From assembly GCA_947476015.1 (NCBI GenBank), contig CANJOS010000007.1, positions 1 through 41,502 of the forward strand: a DNA stretch of 41,502 bases, in the 5' to 3' direction. The position numbers and the translations under genes are program-made. This document shows, in pieces, positions 16,035 to 31,787 of the stretch. The stretch's first letter is position 1, and every line of letters begins with the position of its first letter. This DNA comes from Comamonadaceae bacterium. Lineage in GTDB: Bacteria; Pseudomonadota; Gammaproteobacteria; Burkholderiales; Burkholderiaceae_C. Under the pieces are notes generated by a model, which was given only the letters and a program-made list of their open reading frames with translations, had not been told where the DNA came from and made no database searches.

Positions 16035-16832
16035 ATGACCCTTTTACAAACAGACAAAATGATCGCCCGAAAAGAAAACCATATCGGGTGGTTGACATTC
16101 AACAACCCGGCGCGACTGAATGCGGTATCTCTGGAGATGTGGGAAGGATTGGCTTGCATCGCTGAAGACTTTGCCAGCGATACCAACATCCGCGTGGTGA
16201 TCGTGCAGGGGGCCGGTGACAAAGCCTTTGTTTCAGGAGCGGATATTTCTGAATTTGCAAATCAACGTGACTCTGCTCAGGCTACCTTGCGGTATGACGC
16301 TATCTCTTCAATAGGCATGCTCGCTCTCAAAAACATGAAGAAGCCAAGCATCGCCATGATCAATGGGTACTGCGTTGGGGGTGGCGTTGCCGTGGCATTG
16401 AACTGCGACATTCGAATCGCAAGTGAGAATTCAAAGTTTGCCGTACCCGCCGCCAAATTGGGTTTGGGTTATGAATACGAAGGCGTTCGCAAACTGGTTG
16501 ACATTGTCGGGCCGTCGTTCGCACAAGAAATTTTCTTCACAGCACGTCAATTTACCGCTCAAGAAGCATTGGCCATGGGCTTGATCAATCGCATGCTTCC
16601 TGTTGATTCATTAGAACAATATGTTCGTCAATACGCTGACATGATTGCGGCCAATGCACCCATGACGGTCGCCTCCATCAAAACCATTGTGGGCGAAATC
16701 GTCAAAGACGAAACTCAACGTGATATTGCATTGTGCGATCGGGTATTTACGGCATGTTTCGAAAGTGAAGATTTCAAAGAAGGCAGAACCGCTTTCATGG
16801 CCAAACGCAAGCCTGTTTTCAAAGGTCGTTGA
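16035..16832 (+). CDS. Enoyl-CoA hydratase/isomerase (crotonase) family protein lacking both usual catalytic Glu
   Basis: A 265-residue crotonase-fold protein. The CoA/oxyanion-hole motifs SGADISEF (67-74) and GYCVGGG (111-117) are intact. Compared with classical enoyl-CoA hydratase, the two catalytic glutamates are not there: the GGGCE position reads GGGVA (Ala119) and the PE position reads PA (Ala139). The fold and acyl-CoA binding are secure, but hydration by the standard mechanism is not. Isomerase, decarboxylase or another crotonase reaction is possible. It lies 33 bases before a CaiB-type CoA-transferase gene and probably forms a two-gene unit with it. The start could also be ATG 16059. 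Confidence 0.88.
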   Translation: MTLLQTDKMIARKENHIGWLTFNNPARLNAVSLEMWEGLACIAEDFASDTNIRVVIVQGAGDKAFVSGADISEFANQRDSAQATLRYDAISSIGMLALKNMKKPSIAMINGYCVGGGVAVALNCDIRIASENSKFAVPAAKLGLGYEYEGVRKLVDIVGPSFAQEIFFTARQFTAQEALAMGLINRMLPVDSLEQYVRQYADMIAANAPMTVASIKTIVGEIVKDETQRDIALCDRVFTACFESEDFKEGRTAFMAKRKPVFKGR

Positions 16833-18118: not shown

Positions 18119-18904
18119 TCATTGCGCCAAAAATCCGCCATCCACTGCCAAGGTATGGCCTGTCACCATGCTGGCGCAAGGTGAACATAAAAAAACAACA
18201 GCACCTACAATGTCTTCAGGCTTAGCAAGTCGTCCCAAGGGGGTTATTCCTTTTATTTTCTCAATCAATTCAGGTTGTGCCATCAGTGACTTGATGAAAT
18301 CTGTTTCCACCCAAGTCGGGGCGATGGCATTGACGCGAATTTGATGCGAGGCCCACTCCACTGCCAATGCCCGCGTTAAATTAACAATGGCACCCTTGGT
18401 AGATTGATAAGAAATATTGGGATACAAACCACCACCCGAGAGCCCCATGATGGAGGCCGTATTGACCATGGCACCACTGCCTTGCTCAATCATGAAGCGT
18501 GCTGCACTTCGCGCACATAAAAACACACCCGTGAGGTTGACTTCCAATACACGATTCCAGTCTGCCAAGGCCAAATCAATGGTTGGCTTTCTGATGGCGA
18601 TTCCTGCGTTGTTAATGAGAATATCCAGTCTTTGGTGAAGCTCGTAAGCTTGGTTCATGGCTTGATCGACTTGAGATTCATCTTTGACATCAACACAGAT
18701 GGCTGTTGCAGACAAGCCTTCTTTCACAATGTCACTGACTGCAGCTTGTGCAGCAGAAAACTCATGGTCCATCACGACCACATGCGCGCCCGATCGCGCC
18801 AAACCTAATGCAACAGCTTTGCCTATGCCATTGCCCCCACCTGTCACAACGGCAGTTTGGCCTTCAAGGCTAAAGGCTTTCAGGGGGTTAAAGCCTGTGC
18901 TCAT
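18119..18904 (-). CDS. Short-chain dehydrogenase/reductase (classical SDR)
   Basis: About 261 residues. NAD(P)-binding motif TGGGNGIG (21-28), NNAGIAI, catalytic Ser in NTASIMG and the YxxxK pair in YQSTK. The C-terminal MVTGHTLAVDGGFLAQ is typical of the classical FabG-like group, which interconverts secondary alcohols and ketones of sugars, polyols, 3-hydroxyacids or steroids. ATG 18904 is preceded by AAGGAT; two upstream starts (ATG 18919, TTG 18922) lack spacing. It follows the SAF-domain oxidoreductase gene by 18 bases, so the two form an operon under the GntR regulator. Confidence 0.87.
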   Translation of the reverse strand: MSTGFNPLKAFSLEGQTAVVTGGGNGIGKAVALGLARSGAHVVVMDHEFSAAQAAVSDIVKEGLSATAICVDVKDESQVDQAMNQAYELHQRLDILINNAGIAIRKPTIDLALADWNRVLEVNLTGVFLCARSAARFMIEQGSGAMVNTASIMGLSGGGLYPNISYQSTKGAIVNLTRALAVEWASHQIRVNAIAPTWVETDFIKSLMAQPELIEKIKGITPLGRLAKPEDIVGAVVFLCSPCASMVTGHTLAVDGGFLAQ

Positions 18905-18922: not shown

Positions 18923-20320
18923 TCAATCGGCATTCATGAAATGAAGATCTTGAGATTTTCTCAACAGATACAAAGGGCTCTGTGTCTCTAAATCAACATC
19001 GTCACACAAGAGCAATTGACCCTTGAGGACACGGCGACGAGTCTTCAACCCAGCGCACAAGTAATACGGAATAGGATTGCCTTGAGACAAAATTTTTGCC
19101 GGATGCAAGGCATGACTTAAACCTTTAATCACATGCCGCTCTCCCATCTCAAGCATTTGACCCGCTTCCAGATCTGTTTGAGCGATTGCGACCAAATCAA
19201 CCAGAGGCCGAACTTGAGTGCTGCCCGTTGAGCATTGCAAACTCACAGCGGACAAAACTGACAGGGTGGCTTCGGCCCCAAGCAAATGCACAGGGTTGTG
19301 GATCAGGACATATTTATTCTCTGGGCAAGTGGGTATCCCTTTGCTTGCTAAGAGTTGACCTGTTTTTTGATCTGGCACTTCAATGACGACAAAGACACCA
19401 CCAGCAAAACTCAATTCATCGGGGCGTCGCAGGCAATTGAACATGTCAACGCGGTTGACACCGTGGAGCAGTCCGCCATCGGCTTTGGGTCTGAAAATGG
19501 TAGGCAATTCGGTGGTTTTTGCCAAGGGTGCATGCAGTGTGGGGGTGTCTGGCATAAGACCGGTGTGATTGCAAACAATGCCCATCTCACACAAATCAGG
19601 TACGGTGGTTAATGCAAAAGGGACATTCGCACGGCCTGAAAGATTTTTTTCTAAATCATGACTGGCTTGCAAATTAAAGAAGTCTTGAAAATCAGGACAC
19701 CGAGCCTGCTCGCCCCATGCTGTAATGCCGCTGCTGGCCGCGTCCCAAACAAAATCAGACTCGCTTGATTTGCCCGCACAAACTATGGGGAACCCCATGA
19801 TTTTGGCCCATTCGATCAGACCAATCAGAAGGCTGGGTTGATCCCCATCGACGGGCGAGATCACCACCCCTTTTTTGTGGGCTCTGCGAGCCAGTTCAGC
19901 GCCCACGACAACTTCGGCTTCTTTGGTGGCCATCACCACATGGCGACCTGCTTCGATGCACGCTAAGGCAGTTGCAGCAGCGCCTTGTGGATCTCCGGTG
20001 GCCTCAAGCACCACGAGGAGAGGCATTTGAACCAATAATTCGGCTCGGTCAACCACAACCAATTGACCCAATTGAATGGCTTTGAGGGCTTGCGGTAAAT
20101 CATGACAAACTTGAATATCTGAGATTGCAAATCCCACACCCACAGCAGTTTGCACCGCACGCTGGATGTTTTGATCGCAAACAGCAAGCATTTTCAAGCT
20201 TGGCATTCGCCCAACTTGCGCCATAAAGCTGGCCCCAAATTCACCAGCGCCAACCAAACCAACCCCAGCAGGTTGAAGTGACTTCGCTCCAAATTTTGAA
20301 AAAATTGTTTGAAGGTTCAT
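18923..20320 (-). CDS. NAD(P)-dependent homoserine-dehydrogenase-like oxidoreductase with C-terminal SAF domain (DXR-like family)
   Basis: About 465 residues. The N-terminal Rossmann motif GLVGAGEFG (21-29) is followed by a long central domain (SPVDGDQPSLLIGLIEW, GITAWGEQARCPDF). The C-terminal part has an SAF-like segment, about residues 365-450 (ATLSVLSAVSLQCST, EAGQMLEMGERHVIKGL, VLKGQLLLCDDVDL). This architecture matches proteins annotated as SAF-domain or FlgA-like oxidoreductases. From memory, the Brucella DXR-like enzyme DRL, which makes 2-C-methylerythritol 4-phosphate, belongs to this group; most members have no known substrate. An equally likely role is oxidation of a sugar acid imported by the TRAP system next door. 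The start is M6 (20320) or M1 (20335). Confidence 0.75.
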   Translation of the reverse strand: MNLQTIFSKFGAKSLQPAGVGLVGAGEFGASFMAQVGRMPSLKMLAVCDQNIQRAVQTAVGVGFAISDIQVCHDLPQALKAIQLGQLVVVDRAELLVQMPLLVVLEATGDPQGAAATALACIEAGRHVVMATKEAEVVVGAELARRAHKKGVVISPVDGDQPSLLIGLIEWAKIMGFPIVCAGKSSESDFVWDAASSGITAWGEQARCPDFQDFFNLQASHDLEKNLSGRANVPFALTTVPDLCEMGIVCNHTGLMPDTPTLHAPLAKTTELPTIFRPKADGGLLHGVNRVDMFNCLRRPDELSFAGGVFVVIEVPDQKTGQLLASKGIPTCPENKYVLIHNPVHLLGAEATLSVLSAVSLQCSTGSTQVRPLVDLVAIAQTDLEAGQMLEMGERHVIKGLSHALHPAKILSQGNPIPYYLCAGLKTRRRVLKGQLLLCDDVDLETQSPLYLLRKSQDLHFMNAD

Positions 20321-20328
20321 GATATATT

Positions 20329-20353
20329 CTTGCATACAAAATTAAATTTGTAT
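20329..20353. promoter_or_regulatory. Candidate GntR operator 1 (divergent promoter)
   Basis: CTTGCATACAAAATT (20329-20343) matches 14 of 15 bases of a second copy at 21148-21162. It overlaps an exact inverted repeat ATACAAA (20334-20340)/TTTGTAT (20347-20353). It lies between the divergent SAF-oxidoreductase and gntR genes, overlapping the possible start of the former, and so could control both. Binding by the GntR protein is inferred from position and repetition. Confidence 0.6.
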
Positions 20354-20383
20354 CAAACTCGCGCATATTTTTCAAAGTCATGA

Positions 20384-21136
20384 ATGGTCAAGCTTCGTTT
20401 AATTCCAACGCCCCAAGATGCCATGCTTGGCATCAGCAAGGTCGAGCAAATCCCTAAAAAAGGCGATTTACATCAGCATGCTGTGGCCATGCTTAGAAAC
20501 ATGATCATTACTGGCGCTTTGGCGCCTGGAGAACGCCTCAATGAGCGCGAGTTGTGTGCGAGTTTGAATGCCTCCAGAACGCCTGTTCGCGAAGCCATTA
20601 AAACTTTGGCTCAAGATGGCTTGATCGAAGTTTCACCGAATCGCTCCCCTGTTGTCGTTCCCTTGGATGCGCAACAAACAGAAGACCTGATCGTTGTGGT
20701 TTCTTCGATTGAGGCGCTTGCCGGCGAATTGGCTGCAGCACGCATGACCGATGCAGAAATTGCTGAATTGGGCATCCTGCACTACACCATGCTCAAGCAC
20801 CAGGCGAATGACGACCTGCCTGACTACTTCAAGGCCAACAAAGCATTCCACCGAAAGATTTTGGAATATGCACACAACAGCACTTTGTTATGGGTCTGGG
20901 ACTTGCTTTCTTTGCGTGTCGACAGAGCCAGATATGCCTCCAACTTATGGCCCGAGCGCTGGAACAAAGCCATGCAAGAGCATGAGCATATTTTGAAGTG
21001 CCTGAGTGAACGAAAGCCCAAAGCTACGTCTCTGGCCATGTCTGAACACGTGCAAAACGGACTGTCGGTGGTCGTCAGGAGTCTTTTACAAACTCAGCAA
21101 TTTCAGCCCCAAAATCAGAGAAAACCCTTGGATTGA
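20384..21136 (+). CDS. GntR-family transcriptional regulator, FCD (FadR) subfamily
   Basis: A 250-residue regulator. The N-terminal winged helix, about residues 28-95, carries LAPGERLNERELCASLNASRTPVREAIKTL. The C-terminal helical FCD ligand domain holds the metal-binding histidines in FHRKILEYAHN, EHEHILK and MSEHVQNGL. FCD regulators usually sense small carboxylates, often sugar acids, and are released from DNA by them. It is divergent from the SAF oxidoreductase-SDR pair and upstream of the TRAP importer; both control regions carry the same 15-bp motif. The start is ATG 20384; M14 (20423) is also possible. Confidence 0.9.
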   Translation: MVKLRLIPTPQDAMLGISKVEQIPKKGDLHQHAVAMLRNMIITGALAPGERLNERELCASLNASRTPVREAIKTLAQDGLIEVSPNRSPVVVPLDAQQTEDLIVVVSSIEALAGELAAARMTDAEIAELGILHYTMLKHQANDDLPDYFKANKAFHRKILEYAHNSTLLWVWDLLSLRVDRARYASNLWPERWNKAMQEHEHILKCLSERKPKATSLAMSEHVQNGLSVVVRSLLQTQQFQPQNQRKPLD

Positions 21137-21147
21137 CGGCTCAAAAT

Positions 21148-21162
21148 CTTGCATGCAAAATT
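21148..21162. promoter_or_regulatory. Candidate GntR operator 2 (upstream of the TRAP genes)
   Basis: CTTGCATGCAAAATT contains the perfect palindrome TTGCATGCAA (21149-21158). It lies in the 50-base gap between gntR and the TRAP receptor gene, 25 bases before its ATG. The same sequence, with one base changed, occurs upstream of gntR itself. Confidence 0.6.
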
Positions 21163-21186: not shown

Positions 21187-22209
21187 ATGACCTCGCCCAT
21201 CACCCATTTTTCTAAAATTTCTCGCCGTTCACTTTTGCAATCCAGTGCAGCCATCAGTTGCGGTTCATTTTTGATACCTGCAAAAGCGGCAGTTGAGCTC
21301 AAGCTCACCCATCCTGCAGATCTATCGCATCCCGTGCATACCGAAGCAGAAAAAATGGTCAGGCGCATTCTCGACCGAACCAATGGCGAAGTCAAAATTA
21401 CAATATTTCCCAACAACACATTGGGCTCCCCCGTGGAGACAGCGCAGCAAACTCGTCTGGGCGCCATCGACATGATCTTGATGAATCCCGCCAATATCGA
21501 GTCAATCTCAAAGGCCGTGGGAGTGATCAATATTCCTTACCAGTTTGACAGTTATGAGCACGCGCACAAAACACTGGACACCACAGCCAAAGATTGGCTT
21601 GCACAGCAGCTTGCCACCGTTGGCTTTAGTTGGATTGCCAACTTTGAATGGGGCTTCAGGGCCTTGTCAAACAGCCGCAAGCCTGTGCGCGTGCCAGATG
21701 ATGTCAAAGGTATGAAACTGCGCGTACCACCCGAGTTGGCCATCAAGTCGGCCTTTGAGGCATTGGGTGCAAATACACAGACCATTGCCTTTCAGGAAGT
21801 TTATTTGGCCTTGGCCAATAAAACGGTAGACGGACAAGACAACCCCATCGGAACAACCTTTGCCGCCAAATTTTTTGAAGTTCAAAGCCACATTGCTTTG
21901 ACCAAGCATATTTACAGCACCATCATGTTCACAGCCAACCAGCGCTCTTGGCAAAACAAACTCAACGAAGCGCAAAGAAAAATTATTTCTGAAGAAGCTG
22001 CTGTGGCTGGACAAGCTGCTCGAAAAGGTGTTCGCGATAAGGAAGAAGAAAACATTGCCATCATGCAAAAAGCAGGCGTGGCCTTTACGCGTCCCGATGT
22101 CGCTCCTTTCAGAGACAAGATGGGGCCAGCCTATGATGTCTTGAAGAAAAGCTTAGGGGACGACACTTGGAACACTTGGACCAAATTGGTGGCCTCTGCA
22201 CGCGCTTAA
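21187..22209 (+). CDS. TRAP transporter solute receptor, DctP family
   Basis: About 340 residues. The N-terminus has a twin-arginine-like motif SRRSLLQSS before the hydrophobic core and ends near AKAA. The DctP family blocks FPNNTLGSPVETAQQTRLGAIDM, GMKLRVPP (ligand arginine) and ANKTVDGQDNP are present. The receptor captures a small carboxylate in the periplasm for the sodium-driven DctQM permease encoded next. ATG 21187 has a strong AGGAG box (21176-21180); the longer frame from 21133 crosses the candidate operator and is rejected. The first gene of a TRAP-SDR unit. Confidence 0.92.
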   Translation: MTSPITHFSKISRRSLLQSSAAISCGSFLIPAKAAVELKLTHPADLSHPVHTEAEKMVRRILDRTNGEVKITIFPNNTLGSPVETAQQTRLGAIDMILMNPANIESISKAVGVINIPYQFDSYEHAHKTLDTTAKDWLAQQLATVGFSWIANFEWGFRALSNSRKPVRVPDDVKGMKLRVPPELAIKSAFEALGANTQTIAFQEVYLALANKTVDGQDNPIGTTFAAKFFEVQSHIALTKHIYSTIMFTANQRSWQNKLNEAQRKIISEEAAVAGQAARKGVRDKEEENIAIMQKAGVAFTRPDVAPFRDKMGPAYDVLKKSLGDDTWNTWTKLVASARA

Positions 22210-22227: not shown

Positions 22228-23526
22228 ATGTTCATTGCCGCGATTTTATTTTTAGTTGGCTTCAGCATTGTGCTCGGCTTCCCCATTGCGGGGGCGCTGG
22301 GCATGATTGCTGGTGCCATCATGGTCTACACATCAGGTGCCGACTTGCTGATGATTTTTATTCAGCGCGCCTATGCTGCAACCACTTCGTTTCCACTCTT
22401 GGCCATTCCATTTTTCATCCTGGCGGGAAACCTCATGAACGTGGGCGGCACGACAGAGAGAATTTTTGAAGTCGCCAAATTGTTTGTAGGTCAAGTGAGA
22501 GGCGGATTGGCGCACGTGAATGTGATTGGCAGCATGATTTTTGCAGGGATGTCGGGCTCTGCAGTTGCAGATGCAGCAGGTCTGGGCGTGATAGAAATAC
22601 GCGCCATGATCAAGGAAGGTTATCAAGCGAAATATGCAGCCACCATCACTGCGGTGTCGTCCACCATTGGCCCCATCATTCCGCCCAGTATTCCATTTGT
22701 AATCTACGGCAGCCTGGCCAATGTTTCGGTAGGTGCATTGTTTCTAGCTGGCATTGTTCCAGGTTTACTGGTGGGCGCTGGCTTGATGATTTCAATTGCT
22801 TTGGCAGCCAAGAAACTGAATTTGCCGCGCTCCGCAGGCATTCCAAGTTGGTCAATCGCCTCGAGGGTGATCCTTCGCGCCATCCCCGCACTGGCATTGC
22901 CGCCCCTTATTTTGTACGCCATTTTCAGTGGCGTTGTCACGCCCACGGAAGCCGCTGTTCTGGCAACTGCCTACGCCTATTTCTTAGGCCATTTTGTTTA
23001 CAAAGAGTTAACCTGGGACAGCTTGGTCCAAACCGTTTGGGACTCCGGACGACAAACCGCACAAGTCATGTTCATCATTGCCATGTCTGCGCCCTTTGGT
23101 TGGGTCTTGATTCAGCAGCAAGTACCCAATGCCATTTTGCAAGGCTTGATGTCACTGTCCGCAGATCCGATTGTCATTTTGTTGATCGTGAACGTGGTGT
23201 TGTTGATTCTGGGCATGTTCTTGGAGACGATTGCCATCATGATCATCACTTACCCTATCTTGGCCCCTGTGATGGCAGGCATCGGCGTTGACCCGGTTCA
23301 CTTTGGTGTAATTTTGGTGGTCAACATGATGATTGGCTTGGTAACACCGCCGGTCGGCTTGTGTTTGTTTGTGGTCTCTGGAATTGCCAAAGTACCAATT
23401 GCAGACATCGTTAGCGAGTTAACGCCTTACTTGATCGCATTGTTAGTGGTACTGGTGATGGTCACTTATGTTCCTGCATTTTCTTTGTGGCTGCCCCACC
23501 TTTTAGGATATGGAGTCGTCAAATGA
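22228..23526 (+). CDS. TRAP transporter large permease, DctM family
   Basis: A 432-residue membrane protein with 11-12 predicted helices. Typical DctM signatures are FPLLAIPFFILAGNLMN, GMSGSAVADAAGLG, TIGPIIPPSIPFVIYG and GLVTPPVGLCLF. It forms the transport channel with the DctQ-like subunit whose start codon overlaps its stop (ATGA). The order here is receptor, large, then small permease, whereas receptor, small, large is more common and is what the second TRAP cluster at 27159-29991 shows. Confidence 0.93.
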   Translation: MFIAAILFLVGFSIVLGFPIAGALGMIAGAIMVYTSGADLLMIFIQRAYAATTSFPLLAIPFFILAGNLMNVGGTTERIFEVAKLFVGQVRGGLAHVNVIGSMIFAGMSGSAVADAAGLGVIEIRAMIKEGYQAKYAATITAVSSTIGPIIPPSIPFVIYGSLANVSVGALFLAGIVPGLLVGAGLMISIALAAKKLNLPRSAGIPSWSIASRVILRAIPALALPPLILYAIFSGVVTPTEAAVLATAYAYFLGHFVYKELTWDSLVQTVWDSGRQTAQVMFIIAMSAPFGWVLIQQQVPNAILQGLMSLSADPIVILLIVNVVLLILGMFLETIAIMIITYPILAPVMAGIGVDPVHFGVILVVNMMIGLVTPPVGLCLFVVSGIAKVPIADIVSELTPYLIALLVVLVMVTYVPAFSLWLPHLLGYGVVK

Positions 23527-24032
23527 TCGGGTATTTCAGACGTCTTGATTTTCTGATCGCCTCTCTCCTGAAGTGGTCGGTCATTGCCTGTTTTTTTGGA
23601 CTGTTTCTTTTGATGATCTCTGGGATTTTGCAACGCTTCATGCCTGAATTTAAAATATCAGGCTACGAGGAGATGATTGAGTTTTTATTTGTCTGGATGA
23701 CCTATTTAGGTGCTACTGCCATGTGGCGAGAAGGCATGCTTTATCGGGTCGGCGCATTCGACAAGGTGTTCTCAAAGTCAGTTAAACGCGCTCTGGGTGT
23801 GATCATTCATTTGTTCATGATCGCTTTATGTTGGGTGCTTATTTTCAAAGGCAGTGACTTTGCATTTTCAGCTGGCGAGATCACACCATTTTTACAATTC
23901 AACAAAATTTATTGGTATGCAGCAATTCCTATTTGTGGTTCTTTCATGGCGGTTTACAGCTTGATTTCGCTGGCACGTTTGCTGATAGACCCCTCGTTTG
24001 AAGAGCATCAAGAAGTCATCACGCTGGGTTAA
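23523..24032 (+). CDS. TRAP transporter small permease, DctQ family
   Basis: About 169 residues with four hydrophobic helices. The sequences RFMPEFKISGYEEMIEFLFVWMTYLG (quoted in part: the GYEEM and FVWMTYLG blocks) and the charged loop after helix 2 are typical of DctQ. ATG 23523 overlaps the stop of the large-subunit gene by four bases, so translation is likely coupled. The frame is open a little further upstream (23487) but only inside the DctM gene. Confidence 0.88.
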   Translation: MIGYFRRLDFLIASLLKWSVIACFFGLFLLMISGILQRFMPEFKISGYEEMIEFLFVWMTYLGATAMWREGMLYRVGAFDKVFSKSVKRALGVIIHLFMIALCWVLIFKGSDFAFSAGEITPFLQFNKIYWYAAIPICGSFMAVYSLISLARLLIDPSFEEHQEVITLG

Positions 24033-24051: not shown

Positions 24052-24822
24052 ATGTCACGATTAGCAGGAAAAATAGCGATTATCACGGGTGCAGCAGGCG
24101 GTATTGGTTCTGCAACTGCATTGCTTTTTTGCGAGGAAGGCGCTAGCCTTGTCATGGTCGATTTACCAGAATCACCCTTGCAGACGGTTGTCGATGGCAT
24201 TTTAAAAAGAATTCCAAGCGCTCAAATTGAAATTGTTTTTGCAGACGTTGGTCAAGAGGCATCCGCGAAATTCATTGCTGAGACTGCTCTGCGTCGATTC
24301 CAAAAAATTGACATTCTGGTGAACAATGCAGGTGTGCGCGCTTATGAAGCATTGGCGCAAACCACAGCGTCGACATGGGAAAAAATATTGTCAGTCAATC
24401 TGCTCAGTTACGCCTATTTGATTCGCGAGTGCCTGCCTTATCTGCGGGCCAGTGAACAAGCCTCTGTCATCAACATTTCTTCAACGCATGCCGTCAATCC
24501 ACGCAGTGGAATGGGTCAGTACGATGTGGCCAAAGCCGGGATCGTTTCATTGACCAAAACCTTGGCATTTGAAGAGGCGGTTCATGGAATTCGTGTGAAT
24601 GCAGTTTGTCCGGGCCTCACTCTTACACCCTTTCACGTCAAACGCGCTCAGGCTGACGGAAAAACCGAACAAGATTTGAGACAGGAAGATGTCACCCACA
24701 ACATACAAAAGAGATGGAGTGAGCCACGTGAAATTGCTTATCCAATTTTATGGTTGGCGTCCAATGAAGCCTCTTTTATAACAGGCTCTGTGTTGATGGT
24801 CGACGGTGGTACCCGGGTCTAG
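24052..24822 (+). CDS. Short-chain dehydrogenase/reductase
   Basis: About 256 residues. Cofactor motif TGAAGGIG near residue 12, NNAGVRAY, catalytic Ser in NISSTHAVN and YDVAK for the Tyr/Lys pair. It ends with ITGSVLMVDGGTRV. ATG 24052 has AAAGGA in front and lies 19 bases after the DctQ gene, so it is the last gene of the TRAP operon. Together with the neighbouring lactonase-like amidohydrolase (convergent) it resembles a sugar-dehydrogenase/lactonase pair, in which the SDR oxidises a cyclic sugar or an alcohol group of a sugar acid. The specificity is not determined by the sequence. Confidence 0.88.
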   Translation: MSRLAGKIAIITGAAGGIGSATALLFCEEGASLVMVDLPESPLQTVVDGILKRIPSAQIEIVFADVGQEASAKFIAETALRRFQKIDILVNNAGVRAYEALAQTTASTWEKILSVNLLSYAYLIRECLPYLRASEQASVINISSTHAVNPRSGMGQYDVAKAGIVSLTKTLAFEEAVHGIRVNAVCPGLTLTPFHVKRAQADGKTEQDLRQEDVTHNIQKRWSEPREIAYPILWLASNEASFITGSVLMVDGGTRV

Positions 24823-24853: not shown

Positions 24854-25777
24854 CTAATCAAGCTTTAAATTCAAGCGATAAAAATCATTGGCATTGCCCA
24901 CAAAAAATGCATGCCGCTGCTGGCTTGAAAAATTTTCAAGCATTCTTGAGACCGATTGAACCAAAGTGTCAAAATCAATGCGCAAACCAGCCACAGGAAA
25001 GTTGGAAGCAAACATGCAACGCTCAATGCCAAAAATACCAATGGCGTCTAAGACTATTTGCCGGTTAGATTCATAAGACCACTTTTCATGCTTCAGCCCA
25101 AACTCAGACACCTTCAGGTACACGTTAGGTTCTTTGGCAATGGTTTGCATGGCGAGTCGCCAAGCTTGCAAGCCTTGTGGACTTCGATCCCATGGAAAAC
25201 CAGTATGGTTCAACACAATGGGCGTTTGCGGAAATGATCGGGCCACATCTGCCGCCTCAACCAAATGCCAATAGGGAACGCGTAAATCCCAACTCCAGCC
25301 ATATTTCGCCAGTCGGGAAAACCCTGTAAGCCATTTTGGGTCTTGCATGCTGCCTGCTTGGCCTAGTTTGATGTGATCAGGATCGAGCGCAGTGACAGGT
25401 TTTGAACGTATGCCCCTGACCCATGGAAATTGCGCTTGTCGTGCCATCACTTCTTCGCTGTTGTCGGTGTGAAACCATGTGTGCGCAACAATTGCAGTCG
25501 GCATATTTTCAAGCTGTTGCAACTGAGTTAGCCAACGTGTTTCACCCACCTGATCGTCTCTGTTCCATTCAGCTTCGCAATGGACGGTCGCCAGGACCTT
25601 GTGATTTTGGCTGTCCTTGCGGTAATCAGCGGGCAAGTAATTTCTTTTAAGTGCATCGTAAGGACCTAAAAAGAAATGCTGTTCAGGATGATCTTGCAAC
25701 CAAGGGTAATGGTTTTCATCCAAATTCCAAAAATGATGGTGTGCATCGACCAATTTGATATTAGTATGTGCTGACAT
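24854..25777 (-). CDS. Amidohydrolase family protein, COG3618 lactonase type
   Basis: A 307-residue TIM-barrel hydrolase. VDAHHHFWNLDENHYPWL near the N-terminus gives the metal-site HxH; further blocks are VHCEAEWN, PIVLNHTGFPWDRS and MFASNFPVAGL, with the family's terminal aspartate region. The COG3618 group includes L-fucono-lactonase, 2-pyrone-4,6-dicarboxylate lactonase and similar enzymes that open sugar-acid or pyrone lactones. It is clearly paralogous to the protein at 29988-30905, which shares EAEW, LNHTG and MFASNFPV. It converges on the TRAP operon, with 31 bases between stop codons, and is divergent from the LysR gene across a region with tandem repeats. Confidence 0.87.
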   Translation of the reverse strand: MSAHTNIKLVDAHHHFWNLDENHYPWLQDHPEQHFFLGPYDALKRNYLPADYRKDSQNHKVLATVHCEAEWNRDDQVGETRWLTQLQQLENMPTAIVAHTWFHTDNSEEVMARQAQFPWVRGIRSKPVTALDPDHIKLGQAGSMQDPKWLTGFSRLAKYGWSWDLRVPYWHLVEAADVARSFPQTPIVLNHTGFPWDRSPQGLQAWRLAMQTIAKEPNVYLKVSEFGLKHEKWSYESNRQIVLDAIGIFGIERCMFASNFPVAGLRIDFDTLVQSVSRMLENFSSQQRHAFFVGNANDFYRLNLKLD

Positions 25778-25931: not shown

Positions 25932-26005
25932 TCTGATCGAAGACCTTTGGGTCAGTGTTCGCTTATCTCTTAATGATTGCAATGTCAGGTCCGTCGAAAG
26001 CAAAG

Positions 26006-26935
26006 ATGTCTCGCGCAATTCCTCCACTCAATCCGCTCAGAACTTTTGAGGTTGCTGCAAGACATCGCAGCTTCACTCGAGCCGCGGAAGAATTGTCCGT
26101 GACAGCAGCGGCAGTCAGTCATCAGATCAAAATCCTTGAGGAGAGTCTGGGAATTGTTCTTTTTGTACGACAACCAAAATCTCTGGAATTAACGAAAGCT
26201 GCACAGGCCTACCTGCCAAGCATCCAAAAGGCCTTCCACCAGATGGCTGAAGCCACACAGCAGCTGCAGCTTCGGGAAAATTCGTTCACCCTCAAGATCA
26301 ATGTGCCACCTACTTTCGCCGTCAAGTGGCTGATGCCGCGTTTGATCAGATTCCTCAAGCACCATCCGTCCATCGACGTGAAGGTCTCCACATCTGCGCA
26401 GTCAGTTGATTTTGATCGTGAGGGCTTTGACCTTGCGGTACGTTATGGACGTGGTGTTTACCCGGGCCTGCACGCTGAATTGTGTCTACCCGTCGAAGTC
26501 TTTCCCGTGTGCAGCCCAACGCTACTTCAAGGCAAGCATGCATTGCAAGAACCCGCTGACCTGAAGCACCACATCTTGCTACATGACGATAGCACTTATG
26601 CCGATGTCAGTAACCCCAATTGGGCGATGTGGCTGCTTCATGCTGGGGTCCTTGGTGTAGATGCAACGCGTGGGCCATCATTTTGGCCCAGTCATTTGGT
26701 GATCAATGCGGCAATTGACGGTATGGGCGTTGCGCTGGCCAAACGTAATTGGGTTGAGAAAGACATTGAGGAAGGCCGTCTGGTGAAGCCATTTGAGATC
26801 AGTCTGCCTGTCGAATTTTCCTATTACCTTGTCTACCCAGAGTCCCGCTTAAAGGACCCACTGATTACCAGATTCGTCGATTGGGTCAGATCTGAGGTTG
26901 AAGCAGACAAAGCCGACAAGGCAGGCTGTTTGTAA
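26006..26935 (+). CDS. LysR-family transcriptional regulator (GcvA-like)
   Basis: About 309 residues. The GcvA-type start PPLNPLRTFEVAARHRSFT leads into the DNA-binding helix-turn-helix AAEELSVTAAAVSHQIKILEESLG. The LysR substrate domain follows with GFDLAVRYGRGVYPG, PVCSPTLL and a final LVYPESRLKDP. Upstream in-frame starts at 25955 and 25982 add residues without family similarity. It stands directly before the second TRAP operon on the same strand and is divergent from the first lactonase gene, so it could control either or both. The likely effector is the imported acid or its lactone. Confidence 0.88.
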   Translation: MSRAIPPLNPLRTFEVAARHRSFTRAAEELSVTAAAVSHQIKILEESLGIVLFVRQPKSLELTKAAQAYLPSIQKAFHQMAEATQQLQLRENSFTLKINVPPTFAVKWLMPRLIRFLKHHPSIDVKVSTSAQSVDFDREGFDLAVRYGRGVYPGLHAELCLPVEVFPVCSPTLLQGKHALQEPADLKHHILLHDDSTYADVSNPNWAMWLLHAGVLGVDATRGPSFWPSHLVINAAIDGMGVALAKRNWVEKDIEEGRLVKPFEISLPVEFSYYLVYPESRLKDPLITRFVDWVRSEVEADKADKAGCL

Positions 26936-26945
26936 AAGCCCGCCG

Positions 26946-26975
26946 CCCCTAGAAAGAAATTTTGCTTTCTAGGGG
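26946..26975. terminator. Strong hairpin after the lysR gene
   Basis: CCCCTAGAAAG (26946-26956) and CTTTCTAGGGG (26965-26975) form an 11-bp perfect stem around the loop AAATTTTG, ten bases after the lysR stop. The stem is long and stable, but it is followed by GGTATACAG rather than a T-run. It is best called a probable terminator or transcript-stabilising hairpin separating lysR from the TRAP operon. Confidence 0.5.
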
Positions 26976-27041
26976 GGTATACAGAATCTCAGCGATTTCG
27001 GAGGCTAAGTTTTTTTATCATCTCGCTTCAAAATTTATCCC

Positions 27042-27070
27042 TTGACCCATAGTGATGCTCCGCATAAAGT
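27042..27070 (+). promoter_or_regulatory. Possible sigma-70 promoter for the second TRAP operon
   Basis: TTGACC (27042-27047) is followed after 17 bases by TAAAGT (27065-27070), a reasonable -35/-10 pair about 90 bases upstream of the receptor start. A small hairpin, GGGC (27124-27127)/GCCC (27132-27135), lies in the leader before the ribosome-binding site. The evidence is spacing and consensus only. Confidence 0.3.
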
Positions 27071-27158
27071 GAAGTTGCACATAAAAAGTAGTTGCAGTCT
27101 GGGCGTTTTCACAATTAACAAATGGGCACGAGCCCGTTACATCGTAGGAGAATCTGAA

Positions 27159-28163
27159 ATGAATCGGAAGTTCAAATCACTGTTTTCGGCAGCCGTGTTT
27201 TTCGTGGCCGCTGCCCCTTTCTTTTCTGCCCCTGCTCTGGCTGAGGTCAAATTGCGCTGGGCCCACGTGGGTACCGCAGGGGCGCCCCAAACGCTCTATG
27301 CAGAAGAGGTGGCCAAACTGGTCAAGGAACGCACCAACGGGCGAGTTCTCATTCAGCTATTTCCGAATTCGCAACTCGGCGGTGCTGGAGAATTGGTCGA
27401 TGGCGTGAAGTCTGGCGCAATCTCCATGGGCCATCACGAGTTTGCTTCATTGGCCAAATTGGTTCCAACTGTTGCAGTGTTCAATACGCCTTTCGTCTAC
27501 CGAGACCCAGAGCACAGTTTGCGTGCCACCAACGAAAGCACCTCACCTGCCTTGAGAGATATCAACAAGCAACTGGTGGAAAAAGGAAATATCCGAATTG
27601 TGGGTAGTTTTTTTGCTGGCACACGGCACTTGACCTCCAATGAGAAAGTACTCTCCTCTAAAGACATGCAAGGTAAAAAATACCGTGGCGTTCCAATCAA
27701 GTTGTGGTCCTCGATGCTCACTGGCATGGGTGCAGTTGCCACGCCTGTGGAGGTGGCAGAGCTTGCCACTGCATTGGCCACCGGCCTCGTTGTGGGGCAG
27801 GAAAATCCTCTTTGTAATCTTCAATCTCTCAAACTCTTTGAGGTTCAAAAATTTGTGATGATGACGGGCCACATGCAGTCAACCCTCGCCGTTTTCTCCA
27901 ATGAAAAAGCCTGGCAAGCCATTCCGGCTGCAGATCGAAAGATTCTGGAGGACACCATGGCCGAAGTTGGCAAAGCTACGCTAGCTTGGGACCGTGCAAC
28001 CACAGGCAAATGCAGAACCGATCTTGAAGCCAGGGGTATGACTTTTGTTGAAGCCAAAGATGGCCTGGACATTGAAGGTTTCCGCAAATCAGTTCTAGTT
28101 CAAGTTGGCAAAGACTTTCCCGACTGGCCGCCTTTTATCGAGCAGATCCGATCTGTCAAATAA
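27159..28163 (+). CDS. TRAP transporter solute receptor, DctP family
   Basis: About 334 residues with a typical Sec signal peptide (MNRKFKSLFSAAVFF start, cleavage after ALA near residue 28). The DctP blocks LFPNSQLGGAGELVDGVKSGAI, GKKYRGVPIKLW (in place of the usual K-R-P) and LATGLVVGQENPL are present. ATG 27159 has a strong TAGGAG box; the longer frame from 27042 would include the leader. It starts the operon receptor-DctQ-DctM-lactonase-dehydrogenase. It differs clearly from the DctP at 21187, so the two clusters probably import different, though related, acids. Confidence 0.92.
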   Translation: MNRKFKSLFSAAVFFVAAAPFFSAPALAEVKLRWAHVGTAGAPQTLYAEEVAKLVKERTNGRVLIQLFPNSQLGGAGELVDGVKSGAISMGHHEFASLAKLVPTVAVFNTPFVYRDPEHSLRATNESTSPALRDINKQLVEKGNIRIVGSFFAGTRHLTSNEKVLSSKDMQGKKYRGVPIKLWSSMLTGMGAVATPVEVAELATALATGLVVGQENPLCNLQSLKLFEVQKFVMMTGHMQSTLAVFSNEKAWQAIPAADRKILEDTMAEVGKATLAWDRATTGKCRTDLEARGMTFVEAKDGLDIEGFRKSVLVQVGKDFPDWPPFIEQIRSVK

Positions 28164-28191
28164 TCAGCGCAGAGTGCAAGGATAGATTTAA

Positions 28192-28689
28192 ATGTGGGCA
28201 AATAGTCTTGAGTTCATTCGCAAAGGCGTGCGGTGGGCAAGCCTGACCCTGCTGGCTCTATTGGTGATCACACCACTGGCTCAAATTGGAATGCGCGGCA
28301 TCTTCAACGTACCGATGTCCTCGGCCGAAGAACTTGCGCGCTATTTCATGATTTGCCTCACATTTCTGGCGTCATCCTATGTGACGATTGAAGGCGGGCA
28401 GATTCGGATGGAAGAATTTCAGGGTTTGCTGCCGCCTCGTCTTCGCTGGTATCTACAGATGTTCATTGAAATCTCTGGCGTTGTGATGTTCTCAGTTATT
28501 TGCGTCGCTTCAGCTATCACGATAGGCAACAATATGCAAAACCAAACACCAACCCTTGAGATGCCATTTTGGCTCTTCATGGGCCCGTTGCTTGTAGGCT
28601 CATTGTTACTGGTTATCGAGACAGCCGTGTCATTTTTTCATACCTTTCGCCGTCGCAGGCCCGACGAGAAGCACACAGTATTAACCTAA
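28192..28689 (+). CDS. TRAP transporter small permease, DctQ family
   Basis: A 165-residue membrane protein with four hydrophobic helices. The sequences MSSAEELARYFMICLTFLASSY and EGGQIRMEEF (each a typical DctQ block, the first quoted in part) lie between helices 1 and 3. It starts 28 bases after the receptor gene and is followed after 15 bases by the large subunit. The C-terminal tail is basic (FRRRRPDEK), in line with a cytoplasmic end. Confidence 0.88.
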   Translation: MWANSLEFIRKGVRWASLTLLALLVITPLAQIGMRGIFNVPMSSAEELARYFMICLTFLASSYVTIEGGQIRMEEFQGLLPPRLRWYLQMFIEISGVVMFSVICVASAITIGNNMQNQTPTLEMPFWLFMGPLLVGSLLLVIETAVSFFHTFRRRRPDEKHTVLT

Positions 28690-28704
28690 CAAAGGAAGTT
28701 TTCA

Positions 28705-29991
28705 ATGGAAGGTTTTTTCATCGTTGCTGCTTTTCTGTCGCTGTTCGTTCTGGGCTTTCCAGTTGTTCTCGCCATCGGAATTCCGTGCATCGGTTACATA
28801 TTTTTAAAAGGTTTGCCCATCGACCTGATCGCGCAGCGGACCCTTTATGCCCTTGATTCATTTCCTCTGGTCGCAGTGCCAGTGTTCTTATTTGTCGGCA
28901 GCCTGATGAACAGCGCTGGCATTTCACGTTATATCTACAAGTTTGCGGATACCGCCACTGGGCGTCTTCCTGGCGGATTGGCACAGGTCAATATCTTTGG
29001 TAGCCTGATATTTGCCGGCATGTCTGGCTCGGCCCTTGCCGATATTGGCGGATTGGGACGGATTGAAATTGATGCAATGCGAAACAAAGGTTTTACGTCA
29101 AAGTTCGCTGCTGCAGTCACGAGCGCTTCAGCCATCGTTGGCCCGATTTTTCCACCCTCGATTCCGCTGATCATCTATGGCACGGTCACTGGCGTTTCAG
29201 TCATACAGCTGCTGCTGGGCGGTATCCTGCCTGGCCTGCTTTGTGTGCTGATGCTGATGCTGATGACCGCATGGCTGGCCAAACGGCGAAATTACCCGCG
29301 CGCTGAACGTTGGCCAACTTGGGCAGAGTTGTGGCGCGATTTCAAGCCGGCATTCCCCGCCATTGTTGCCCCGTTGATTCTGATTGCTGGCATGCTGGCT
29401 GGTTACTTCACTCCCACCGAGATCGCTGCCGTCACTGTGCTGTACGCAGTGCTGATCAGCAGCCTCTTCTACCGCGAACTAACCTGGCAAGGCGTACTCA
29501 ATGCCGCTTTTGAAACTATTCGTGCTTCGGCGGGTATATTGATCATCGTTGCTGTCGCTGCACTGTTTGGATGGATTTTGTCGGTTGAGCAAGTACCCCA
29601 AAAGCTGACAGAGGTCATGCTGTCAATTTCTACCAACCCTTATGTATTGCTGATGATTGTCAACGTACTGCTGATTTTGGTCGGTATGTTCTTGGACAGC
29701 ACGACTGCAATTTTGGTCATCGCACCAATCATCGCCAAGCCCCTGATTGCAGCCGGTGTGGATCCTGTGCATCTGGGCATGGTCGTCGTTTTCAATCTCA
29801 TGGTGGGTTTGCTGACGCCGCCGATGGGTCTTGCGCTTTTCCTCGTGGCCGACATTGCCAAGGTCACCATGAAAGAGGTCCTCAAAGAGATGCTGCCCTA
29901 TTATGTTCCTCTTCTTATCACGTTGATGCTGATCACCTACGTGCCTGGCCTGACAACGTGGTTACCCCGACTTGCAATGGGTGGGCCGTGA
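28705..29991 (+). CDS. TRAP transporter large permease, DctM family
   Basis: A 428-residue permease with 11-12 helices. Signatures are DSFPLVAVPVFLFVGSLMN, GMSGSALADIGGLG, IVGPIFPPSIPLIIYG and LLTPPMGLALFLVADIA. It couples solute entry to a sodium gradient with the DctQ-like subunit. Its TGA stop is shared with the GTG start of the lactonase gene (GTGA at 29988-29991), so the transporter and the enzyme are translationally coupled, a strong hint that the lactonase acts on the imported solute or on its product. Confidence 0.93.
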   Translation: MEGFFIVAAFLSLFVLGFPVVLAIGIPCIGYIFLKGLPIDLIAQRTLYALDSFPLVAVPVFLFVGSLMNSAGISRYIYKFADTATGRLPGGLAQVNIFGSLIFAGMSGSALADIGGLGRIEIDAMRNKGFTSKFAAAVTSASAIVGPIFPPSIPLIIYGTVTGVSVIQLLLGGILPGLLCVLMLMLMTAWLAKRRNYPRAERWPTWAELWRDFKPAFPAIVAPLILIAGMLAGYFTPTEIAAVTVLYAVLISSLFYRELTWQGVLNAAFETIRASAGILIIVAVAALFGWILSVEQVPQKLTEVMLSISTNPYVLLMIVNVLLILVGMFLDSTTAILVIAPIIAKPLIAAGVDPVHLGMVVVFNLMVGLLTPPMGLALFLVADIAKVTMKEVLKEMLPYYVPLLITLMLITYVPGLTTWLPRLAMGGP

Positions 29992-30905
29992 AAAACAATC
30001 AGCCTGAGCCGAGCGCAGACTTTCCAATCGTTGATGCGCACCAGCATTTTTGGAACATCGAAAAGAACTATCACCCATGGCTGCGCGACGAGCCACCTAT
30101 TTCATTTCGATATGGCGACTACAGCGCAATCCGAAAACAGTATTTGCCTGACGATTACTTTGTCAGCGTTTCGCCACACCATGTTGTGAAGACAGTTTAT
30201 GTAGAAGCCGAATGGGATCCATCAGACCCCATCGGAGAATCACGCTACATCGCAGATTTGCGTCGAGAAAAAAATTTCCCAAATGTCACAGTTGCACAAG
30301 CTTGGCTCGACCGAGATGATTGCGCTTCGGTCCTCGAACAGCAAGCGGCTTTTGACTTTGTGCGCAGCGTAAGGCATAAACCCAGAGCAAACTCTTCTCC
30401 CAATGATGCGGCACCGGGTGGCATGAGCGATGCAAAATGGCGCACTGGTTTCGCGCGGCTTGCGCCCTTAGGATTGCATTTCGATTTGCAGACACCATGG
30501 TGGCACCTCGCCGATGCAACTCTCCTAGCATGCGATTTCCCTGACACTACAATTATTCTCAATCATACGGGGCTTCCCAGCGACCGCAGCGCTGAGGGAC
30601 TTGCCAACTGGCAGCGTGCGATCAAGAAATTAGCATCCTGTCCGAATGTCATGATCAAAATTTCGGGCTTGGGCCAAGAGGGTCAAACTTGGACTGTTGA
30701 CGCCAATCGCGCCATCGTCTTAGCTGCCATCGAAGCTTTCGGACCAGCGCGCGCGATGTTTGCCAGCAACTTCCCAGTCGACAGTTTGTGCGCCAGTTTT
30801 GATACTATTTTCACGGGGTTCCGCACCATCGTTTCTGACTTTTCCGCATCTGAGAAGCGCGCCTTGTTCCACGATAACGCCATCCGCATTTACAACATGG
30901 AGTAA
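29988..30905 (+). CDS. Amidohydrolase family protein, COG3618 lactonase type
   Basis: About 305 residues. VDAHQHFWNIEKNYHPWL carries the metal-binding HxH; further blocks are VYVEAEWDPSDPIGESRY, IILNHTGLPSDRS and MFASNFPVDSL. It starts with GTG 29988, whose last bases are the DctM stop, and is followed after three bases by the dehydrogenase gene. It is paralogous to the protein at 24854. The family hydrolyses sugar-acid, pyrone or muconolactone-type lactones. The TRAP-lactonase coupling suggests that the transported compound is a lactone or yields one. Confidence 0.88.
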   Translation: MKNNQPEPSADFPIVDAHQHFWNIEKNYHPWLRDEPPISFRYGDYSAIRKQYLPDDYFVSVSPHHVVKTVYVEAEWDPSDPIGESRYIADLRREKNFPNVTVAQAWLDRDDCASVLEQQAAFDFVRSVRHKPRANSSPNDAAPGGMSDAKWRTGFARLAPLGLHFDLQTPWWHLADATLLACDFPDTTIILNHTGLPSDRSAEGLANWQRAIKKLASCPNVMIKISGLGQEGQTWTVDANRAIVLAAIEAFGPARAMFASNFPVDSLCASFDTIFTGFRTIVSDFSASEKRALFHDNAIRIYNME

Positions 30906-30908
30906 CAC

Positions 30909-31787
30909 ATGGGAAAACTACGAATAGGCTATGTTGGCATCGGTCTCATGGGCATGCCCATGACACTGCGACTGATGCAGCTTGGCTACTCTGTGACTGT
31001 CTTTGACATTCTGTCAGGACGCACAGATGCGGCATGCGCATCAGGCGCAAAACTGGCAGCCACACCCGCACAAGTGGTGCATGGGAATGACATCATTTTG
31101 CTCAATCTGCCAACCACCGATGCCGTTGAGCTGGCCGTCTTTGGCGAGCATGGCGTTGCAACAGCCATTCGCCCACCGCAACTTATTGTCGATTTTTCAA
31201 CGGTCAAAGTTGACAAGGGACGTGCTTTCGCAGCCAAGCTTAGAGAAAAAACGGGTTGTGGGTGGATCGACGCGCCAGTGTCAGGTGGTCCTCCCGCATG
31301 TGCTGCTGGAAACCTGACCATCATGGCAGGTGGCGATGCTGGCGAGATTGACCGCGTGCGCCCTTTGATGGGCGATATCGCAGGGCAATTCACTTTGATG
31401 GGCCCATCAGGCGCAGGTTTAACCGCCAAGATGATCAACCAACTGATTGTGGGATGCACTCACGCAGTCATGGCCGAAGCGGCTGTTCTTGCCGAAGCCG
31501 CTGGCATTGACGCAGCACGCATTCCTGAGTGCCTTGCGGGAGGTTATGCCGACAGCTCGATGCTACAAAAACTGTATCCAAGAATCATCGCACGCGATTT
31601 CGCGCCTCAGGGTTATGCGCGTCAACTTCTCAAAGATCTGGAGATGTTGAACGAATTCGCCGGCGGCCTTAAAGCGCCATTGCCAATGTCAGGCCAAGCA
31701 TTGACGCTGTATCGGATGCTGATCCATCTGGGCCACTCAGAGCTCGATACTGCGGCAGTATTTAAACTGTACGAGTCGCAAGTCTAG
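30909..31787 (+). CDS. NAD(P)-dependent beta-hydroxyacid dehydrogenase (3-hydroxyisobutyrate dehydrogenase / tartronate semialdehyde reductase family)
   Basis: A 292-residue enzyme. The Rossmann motif is GIGLMG (10-15), the substrate-binding block is DAPVSGGPP, and the catalytic lysine sits in GAGLTAKMINQL (the family G-x-x-x-K-x-x-N pattern). It ends in an all-helical domain. The family oxidises beta-hydroxyacids such as 3-hydroxyisobutyrate, D-glycerate/tartronate semialdehyde, sulfolactate-like or 4-hydroxybutyrate compounds. It follows the lactonase by three bases as the last gene of the LysR/TRAP operon, so it may act on the hydroxyacid released by lactone opening. Confidence 0.9.
   Translation: MGKLRIGYVGIGLMGMPMTLRLMQLGYSVTVFDILSGRTDAACASGAKLAATPAQVVHGNDIILLNLPTTDAVELAVFGEHGVATAIRPPQLIVDFSTVKVDKGRAFAAKLREKTGCGWIDAPVSGGPPACAAGNLTIMAGGDAGEIDRVRPLMGDIAGQFTLMGPSGAGLTAKMINQLIVGCTHAVMAEAAVLAEAAGIDAARIPECLAGGYADSSMLQKLYPRIIARDFAPQGYARQLLKDLEMLNEFAGGLKAPLPMSGQALTLYRMLIHLGHSELDTAAVFKLYESQV

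Follow-up and report, generated by a model that had tools for sequence, protein, structure and literature searches.

Positioned between two units of a putative catabolic cluster, the gene for a GntR-type regulator (gntR) is flanked in this stretch of DNA by two near-identical short motifs, one in the gap that separates it from a divergent oxidoreductase gene (oxr), the other in the gap before the genes of a TRAP transporter (dctP, dctM, dctQ). This raises the question whether the two motifs are operators, which protein binds them, and whether binding serves to repress or to activate the flanking genes. The features are collected in Table 1; the window is the whole stretch that was analysed (41,502 nt).

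The two sites in the window

The initial annotation had placed matching 15-mers on either side of gntR, and this is borne out: CTTGCATACAAAATT and CTTGCATGCAAAATT both lie on the + strand and agree at 14 of 15 bases. The palindromic core that it had described is perfect in operator 2 (TTGCATGCAA) and pairs at four of five positions in operator 1 (TTGCATACAA). Judged from the window alone, the case for the two sites is suggestive: pairs of shuffled gaps share a 15-mer at no more than one mismatch in 3 of 3000 trials, and the 15-mer with up to three mismatches is not rare in the window (7 matches vs 6.71 expected).

Table 1. Coordinates of the features in the window.
Feature	Position	Strand	Description
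sdr1	18119..18904	-	short-chain dehydrogenase behind oxr; co-directional with oxr in the window
oxr	18923..20320	-	DXR-II-like oxidoreductase (Pfam DRL_cat); likely start 20320
-10-like box, oxr promoter	20326..20331	-	AAGAAT, 4/6 match, best of several spacings; overlaps operator 1; predicted
Operator 1	20329..20343	+	15-mer CTTGCATACAAAATT, core TTGCATACAA at 20330-20339; between oxr and gntR; putative
-35-like box, oxr promoter	20351..20356	-	TTGATA; TTGACA in the orthologues
gntR	20384..21136	+	250 aa; GntR winged helix and FCD ligand domain; predicted regulator of both sites
-35-like box, dctP promoter	21133..21138	+	TTGACG; overlaps the gntR stop codon
Operator 2	21148..21162	+	15-mer CTTGCATGCAAAATT, core TTGCATGCAA at 21149-21158; between gntR and dctP; putative
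-10-like box, dctP promoter	21156..21161	+	CAAAAT, 4/6 match; overlaps operator 2; predicted
dctP	21187..22209	+	TRAP solute receptor; Pfam DctP 2.4e-73
dctM	22228..23526	+	TRAP large permease; Pfam DctM 9.4e-116
dctQ	23523..24032	+	TRAP small permease; Pfam DctQ 1.9e-19
sdr2	24052..24822	+	short-chain dehydrogenase, end of the dctP unit; recurs in orthologue clusters

In the genome to which the window belongs (2.8 Mb, 79% complete), exact copies of TTGCATRCAAAATT occur only at operators 1 and 2; forms with one mismatch add 11 entries, one of which is operator 2 read on the opposite strand. The degenerate core TTGYATRCAA has 16 places there, vs one for the reversed control pattern; of the 15 inspected, two are the operators, 12 lie inside ORFs and one is intergenic. 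The latter (TTGCATACAAAATA, L085, 1141-1150) lacks the C flank, and the genes around it, as read from their ORFs, look like those for an amidase and an MmgE/PrpD protein.

The window also contains the further inverted repeat that had been proposed around operator 1, ATACAAA (20334-20340) and TTTGTAT (20347-20353), but a functional role of this repeat is not supported: TTTGTAT follows operator 1 in one of 16 sequences, that of the window, and the repeat was rejected as a second box on this count. The right arm of the repeat covers the -35-like box of oxr, and a hand count puts the repeat at about 16 nt from the operator centre, the distances of reported additional boxes being 7-12 nt.

Conservation in orthologous loci

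A scan of genome contigs with an alignment of three orthologues yields 15 loci (L060-L074) with 57-67% identity in the gntR protein, from Limnohabitans, Ramlibacter, Lautropia, unclassified Comamonadaceae and Burkholderiales, one uncultured bacterium and one Rhizobiales genome; the stretches scored in each were the 200 nt ahead of the gntR match and the 150 nt behind it. The exact core TTGYATRCAA is present before gntR in 15 of 15 loci and after it in 14 of 15, counts that are not independent, since several orthologues are close kin. In 2000 shuffle controls, the core averages 0.0165 (before gntR) and 0.009 (after) of 15, with maxima of 2 and 1, and among 64 compared patterns of the form xyzYATRz'y'x', none besides TTGYATRCAA rises above 0 before gntR and 1 after it. 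It is this conservation in the gaps, set against the shuffles, that identifies the sites as real rather than due to chance. The motif idea, for which the initial annotation had chosen the DNA before orthologous genes as the testing ground, thus survived, with the exact core in 29 of 30 gaps.

In 14 of the 15 loci, TTGYATRCAA occurs at exactly two places, both flanking gntR, and nowhere else in the DNA examined; L063 has it at one place, and the position of operator 2 there holds only forms of the one-mismatch class, TTGCATACAT and, further left, ATGTATGCAT. The core is also kept in the Rhizobiales locus (L073, 57% identity) despite a different gene order. The DNA around the sites is less similar, with a mean identity of 42% in the 30 nt to the right of operator 1 and pairs ranging from 10% to 96%. 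A scoring matrix built on the 29 orthologue sites without those of the window (maximum 32.4) ranks operator 2 first in the window (27.3) and operator 1 second (26.6), the third place scoring 8.4.

Distribution in the genus and family

An orthologue of gntR (E <= 1e-60) is found in 6 of 80 genomes of the genus. Two places of CTTGYATRCAARAWT, on one contig and at a distance of 812-819 bp, are seen in these six genomes and in none of the 74 others; as the six may overlap the 15 orthologue loci, this result is a consistency test. Among the remaining 74 genomes, 12 have one place of CTTGYATRCAARAWT and 62 have none; in all eight of the 12 that were inspected, a different GntR-type gene stands next to the motif, with 42-44% identity in a helix-region match of 52 residues. 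The longer form CTTGYATRCAAG has exactly two places in one genome of 5.3 Mb (G155), both flanking gntR, and one in another (G022), where the other site differs at one flank.

In L123-L128, L132 and L134, a different GntR-type gene of the genus has Gln for Arg55, the helix SRTLVRE and the wing SSRRGW. Its start coincides with or closely follows a single CTTGYATRCAAGATT site, and an apparent gene for a solute-binding protein lies downstream; the operator letters are the same here, the regulator is different.

At the level of the family, CTTGYATRCAAGA is found in 98 of 399 genomes. Thirty of these loci were inspected: none holds this gntR, five have a match to another GntR gene, and in 21 the motif lies within an ORF of at least 150 aa, such ORFs being frequent in GC-rich DNA. 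The motif alone is thus a poor finder of the regulon, and its letters, being present in other contexts, are no private signature. In a plasmid search (2144 records), one record is at 60-80% identity; identity among the matches listed is below 47%.

Promoter anatomy and the start of oxr

Both sites keep a near-fixed distance to -35-like boxes. Eleven of 14 orthologues (L073, which has no divergent oxr, was left out) have TTGACA on the oxr strand, starting 16-17 nt before the core, and 12 of 14 (L063, which has no exact core, was left out) have TTGAC[AGC] on the dctP strand, starting 15-17 nt before it. The mean likeness to a -35 box is highest 16 nt ahead of the core for the oxr strand (4.6 of 6, against 1.56 over all offsets) and 15 nt ahead of it for the dctP strand (3.53, against 1.53); at their best offsets, the two opposite strands score 3.06 and 2.80. 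With a spacing of 17-19 nt, a -10-like box coincides with the right operator arm; the matches of these boxes are weak (4/6 or 3/6) and were picked as the best of several spacings. The promoter-box scan gave no clear promoter on the gntR strand. A site over the promoter spacer and the -10 region is in the usual place for repression, and since both sites cover these elements at a near-fixed distance behind the -35-like boxes of oxr and dctP, repression is suggested.

The start of oxr is, from the sequence, most likely the ATG at 20320; an ATG inside operator 1 was discarded as a start, since reading from it runs into a stop within 7 codons in L060, L061, L062, L065 and L066. Operator 1 is thus intergenic, between the divergent oxr and gntR as initially annotated, its centre being closer to the oxr start (about 15 nt) than to that of gntR (50 nt). 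This placement is in line with a trend described for such divergons in PMC4494728, in which a single site lies closer to the structural gene. With only 5 nt between the -10-like box and the ATG at 20320, the oxr mRNA may be leaderless.

In two Ramlibacter loci, L063 (8669-8800) and L072 (near 2914-2941), a further element that resembles a degenerate operator stands 18 nt upstream of the dctP-side site; the place 16 nt behind TTGACG is taken there by this element rather than by the dctP-side site.

The regulator and its predicted DNA recognition

The gntR product combines an N-terminal GntR winged helix (PF00392, 2.5e-18, residues 31-88) with a C-terminal FCD domain (PF07729, 6.1e-24, residues 102-224); the closest NCBIfam model, phnR_burk, stays far below its cut-off (94 vs 271.5 bits). 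FCD metal sites are formed by an Asp or Asn and three His, residues that hold a metal and a carboxylate; N152, H156, H200 and H222, invariant in 16 of 16 sequences, fit this expected set. Equally invariant are Arg55, SRTPVRE (64-70), P85, N86, S88 and P89, that is, the helix and most of the wing residues.

By our own residue count, Pro67, Asn86 and Arg55 correspond to HTH positions 40, 59 and 28 of PMC4494728, in which Pro at position 40 avoids G/C and Asn at 59 leans to A/T at the K of TKGT, while Arg at 28 goes with G/C at the same base. By this trend, Pro67 and Asn86 would be in line with the TTG of the operators; Arg55, at the position associated with G/C, does not appear to fit the operator T. 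Relatives with Arg at residue 55 (35-44% identity, wing mostly PNRGA) have TTGYATRCAA within 350 nt upstream in 30 of 41 cases, and 15 loci without Arg there (L016-L030) have no core in the stretches searched, although L018 has one inside the gene itself. Arg55 was nevertheless dropped as the core-setting residue, as the group with Gln at that position has the same motif letters.

Compared with the published patterns NyGTNxACNy and TKGT-ACMA, the TTG and CAA arms of the operators fit, and GT/AC fits partly, operator 2 having GC on both arms. Across the 29 orthologue sites, the inner base is C in 19 left arms and G in 14 right arms, and the flank is C in 28 on the left and G in 23 on the right; such C/G flanks are found in none of the 30 Arg55 relatives with the core. 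This pairing of wing and flank is clade-wide and may go back to one event, and the group with the wing SSRRGW also has C flanks; like Arg55, it does not count as proof here.

Proposed mechanism and alternatives

We consider it very probable that the FCD-type GntR regulator has its operators at the two sites that flank its gene, and that they serve the ligand-relieved repression of both units. The regulator would bind the near-palindrome CTTGYATRCAAGA as a dimer, at operator 1 covering the oxr promoter at its spacer and -10 region, and at operator 2 the corresponding parts of the promoter of dctP-dctM-dctQ-sdr2; without ligand, the dimer would block RNA polymerase at both promoters, and a carboxylate substrate or intermediate of the pathway would bind the FCD domain and release it. 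What is observed here is the presence of the sites, their conservation, the linkage of the pair to gntR in the genus, and their near-fixed distance to the -35-like boxes. We infer that the gntR protein is the binder, that it represses rather than activates, and that it acts on its own gene as well; the nature of the ligand is likewise a prediction.

An activating or dual role of the same regulator at both sites is unlikely, but it is the weightiest of the alternatives: the -10 boxes under the sites are weak, and Ms0535, a GntR/FadR-type protein whose site CCTTGCATGCATTCTTGCATGCAAGG contains CTTGCATGCAAG, is an activator (PMC4609117). Against it, the sites lie over the spacer and the -10 region, behind good -35-like boxes in 11/14 (oxr) and 12/14 (dctP). 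It is considerably less probable, indeed very improbable, that the sites are in fact bound by a different GntR-type regulator of the genome that shares the core specificity. The core upstream of 30 of 41 Arg55 relatives (35-44% identity) and the same CTTGYATRCAAGATT letters at a further GntR group speak for such a protein; however, paired sites occur in the genus only in genomes with this gntR, where they flank it, the C/G flanks of the orthologue type are seen in 0/30 relatives, and the other candidates of the own genome, among the matches listed (4 of 13), reach at most 30% identity. A chance resemblance within AT-rich promoter sequence, for which the frequency of the 15-mer at three mismatches in the window might be cited, is contradicted by the core in 29/30 orthologue gaps, against no more than 2 and 1 of 15 in the shuffles, and can practically be dismissed. 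The most likely function thus inferred for the gntR product is that of a local repressor released by a carboxylate ligand; as a GntR/FCD regulator with a 2-nt-spaced palindrome, it would be an ordinary representative of a known kind of bacterial switch.

The gene cluster

The order oxr, gntR, dctP, dctM, dctQ, sdr2 recurs in the orthologue loci: 13 of 15 have a divergent oxr next to gntR (L062 breaks off at this point, and L073 has oxr behind sdr2), dctM is present in 15 and dctP in 14, and dctQ and sdr2 in 13, the contigs of L065 and L067 ending before them. The initial view of one FCD regulator for both units is upheld by this gene order and by the paired placement of the motif, but it had counted sdr1 as a member, and this part does not stand: next to oxr, sdr1 has no match of at least 35% identity in any of the 15 loci, of which L062 breaks off at that point. 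In L062 (1100-1215), most of dctP is absent behind an intact operator, and a short dctP-like start, with frames read by eye, runs into dctM; this is either a deletion or an assembly error.

An amidohydrolase like that at 24857-25777 of the window belongs to the cluster in 14 of 15 loci, behind oxr or sdr2. The window copy has the opposite orientation, adjoins a LysR gene and, by the matrix scan, has no operator before it; its match to the L-fucono-1,5-lactonase model is far below cut-off. It is related to a second amidohydrolase (29958-30902; both Amidohydro_2), so that the two stand at two neighbouring TRAP clusters. This second cluster (25955-31784) comprises LysR, dctP, dctQ, dctM, amidohydrolase and a 3-hydroxyisobutyrate-dehydrogenase-like gene, and has no TTGYATRCAA site; relatives of three of its genes are found downstream in L060. 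In L068, sdr2 is followed by an enoyl-CoA hydratase and a CoA-transferase with 77% and 84% identity to the window genes at 16035 and 16866, an arrangement that hints at a link between the operator cluster and the genes to its left in the window.

Taken as a whole, with confidence evenly balanced for and against the joint picture, the operator pair may define an undescribed regulon of Limnohabitans, Ramlibacter, relatives and one Rhizobiales genome. It would serve a catabolic route with a TRAP importer, a dehydrogenase and a DXR-II-like oxidoreductase, in most cases joined by a lactonase-like amidohydrolase. The oxidoreductase lacks two key residues of DXR-II and perhaps performs a new reaction on a branched or sugar-acid substrate; in this clade, a PN-SP wing would go together with C:G flanks, and the oxr mRNA would be leaderless. 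Limnohabitans-like bacteria are common in fresh water, and the analysis provides a comparatively tested regulon boundary for one of their uncharacterised, TRAP-fed catabolic clusters. Since the releasing ligand should be the substrate or an intermediate, the operator pair also gives a handle on the substrate of the pathway, and it adds a case of how GntR/FCD wings and operator flanks may pair.

Comparison with known systems

The product of oxr resembles DXR-II/DRL of Brucella (PDB 3upl) (match at E = 3.7e-39) in its DRL catalytic domain (PF21135, 1.2e-25) and in keeping His250, but differs from it in Thr229, replaced by Asp, and Arg320, replaced by Asn (alignment positions counted by eye). In this respect, judged by these two residues, it seems nearer to the uncharacterised DXR-II-like oxidoreductases; PMC3847144 describes these families as uncharacterised, with four tested members that did not complement a DXR mutant. 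The literature search yielded no useful paper on an apionate-type pathway.

The sole GntR paper found by searching print for the motif letters is PMC4609117, on Ms0535 of Mycobacterium smegmatis, which is reported to activate itself and a permease. The likeness lies in a FadR-type GntR protein with a footprinted site that contains CTTGCATGCAAG; the site of Ms0535, however, is a 26-bp double inverted repeat, the protein is an activator and the gene cluster is unrelated. The accessible part of PMC4494728 names no group for the present cluster, and the GntR/FCD regulators that it treats share with this one the domain pair, the TTG...CAA palindrome and the single divergon site nearer to the structural gene. 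They differ from it in the consensus, in that the published sites have GT/AC, whereas those of the present regulator frequently have GC at the inner base, and C/G flanks.
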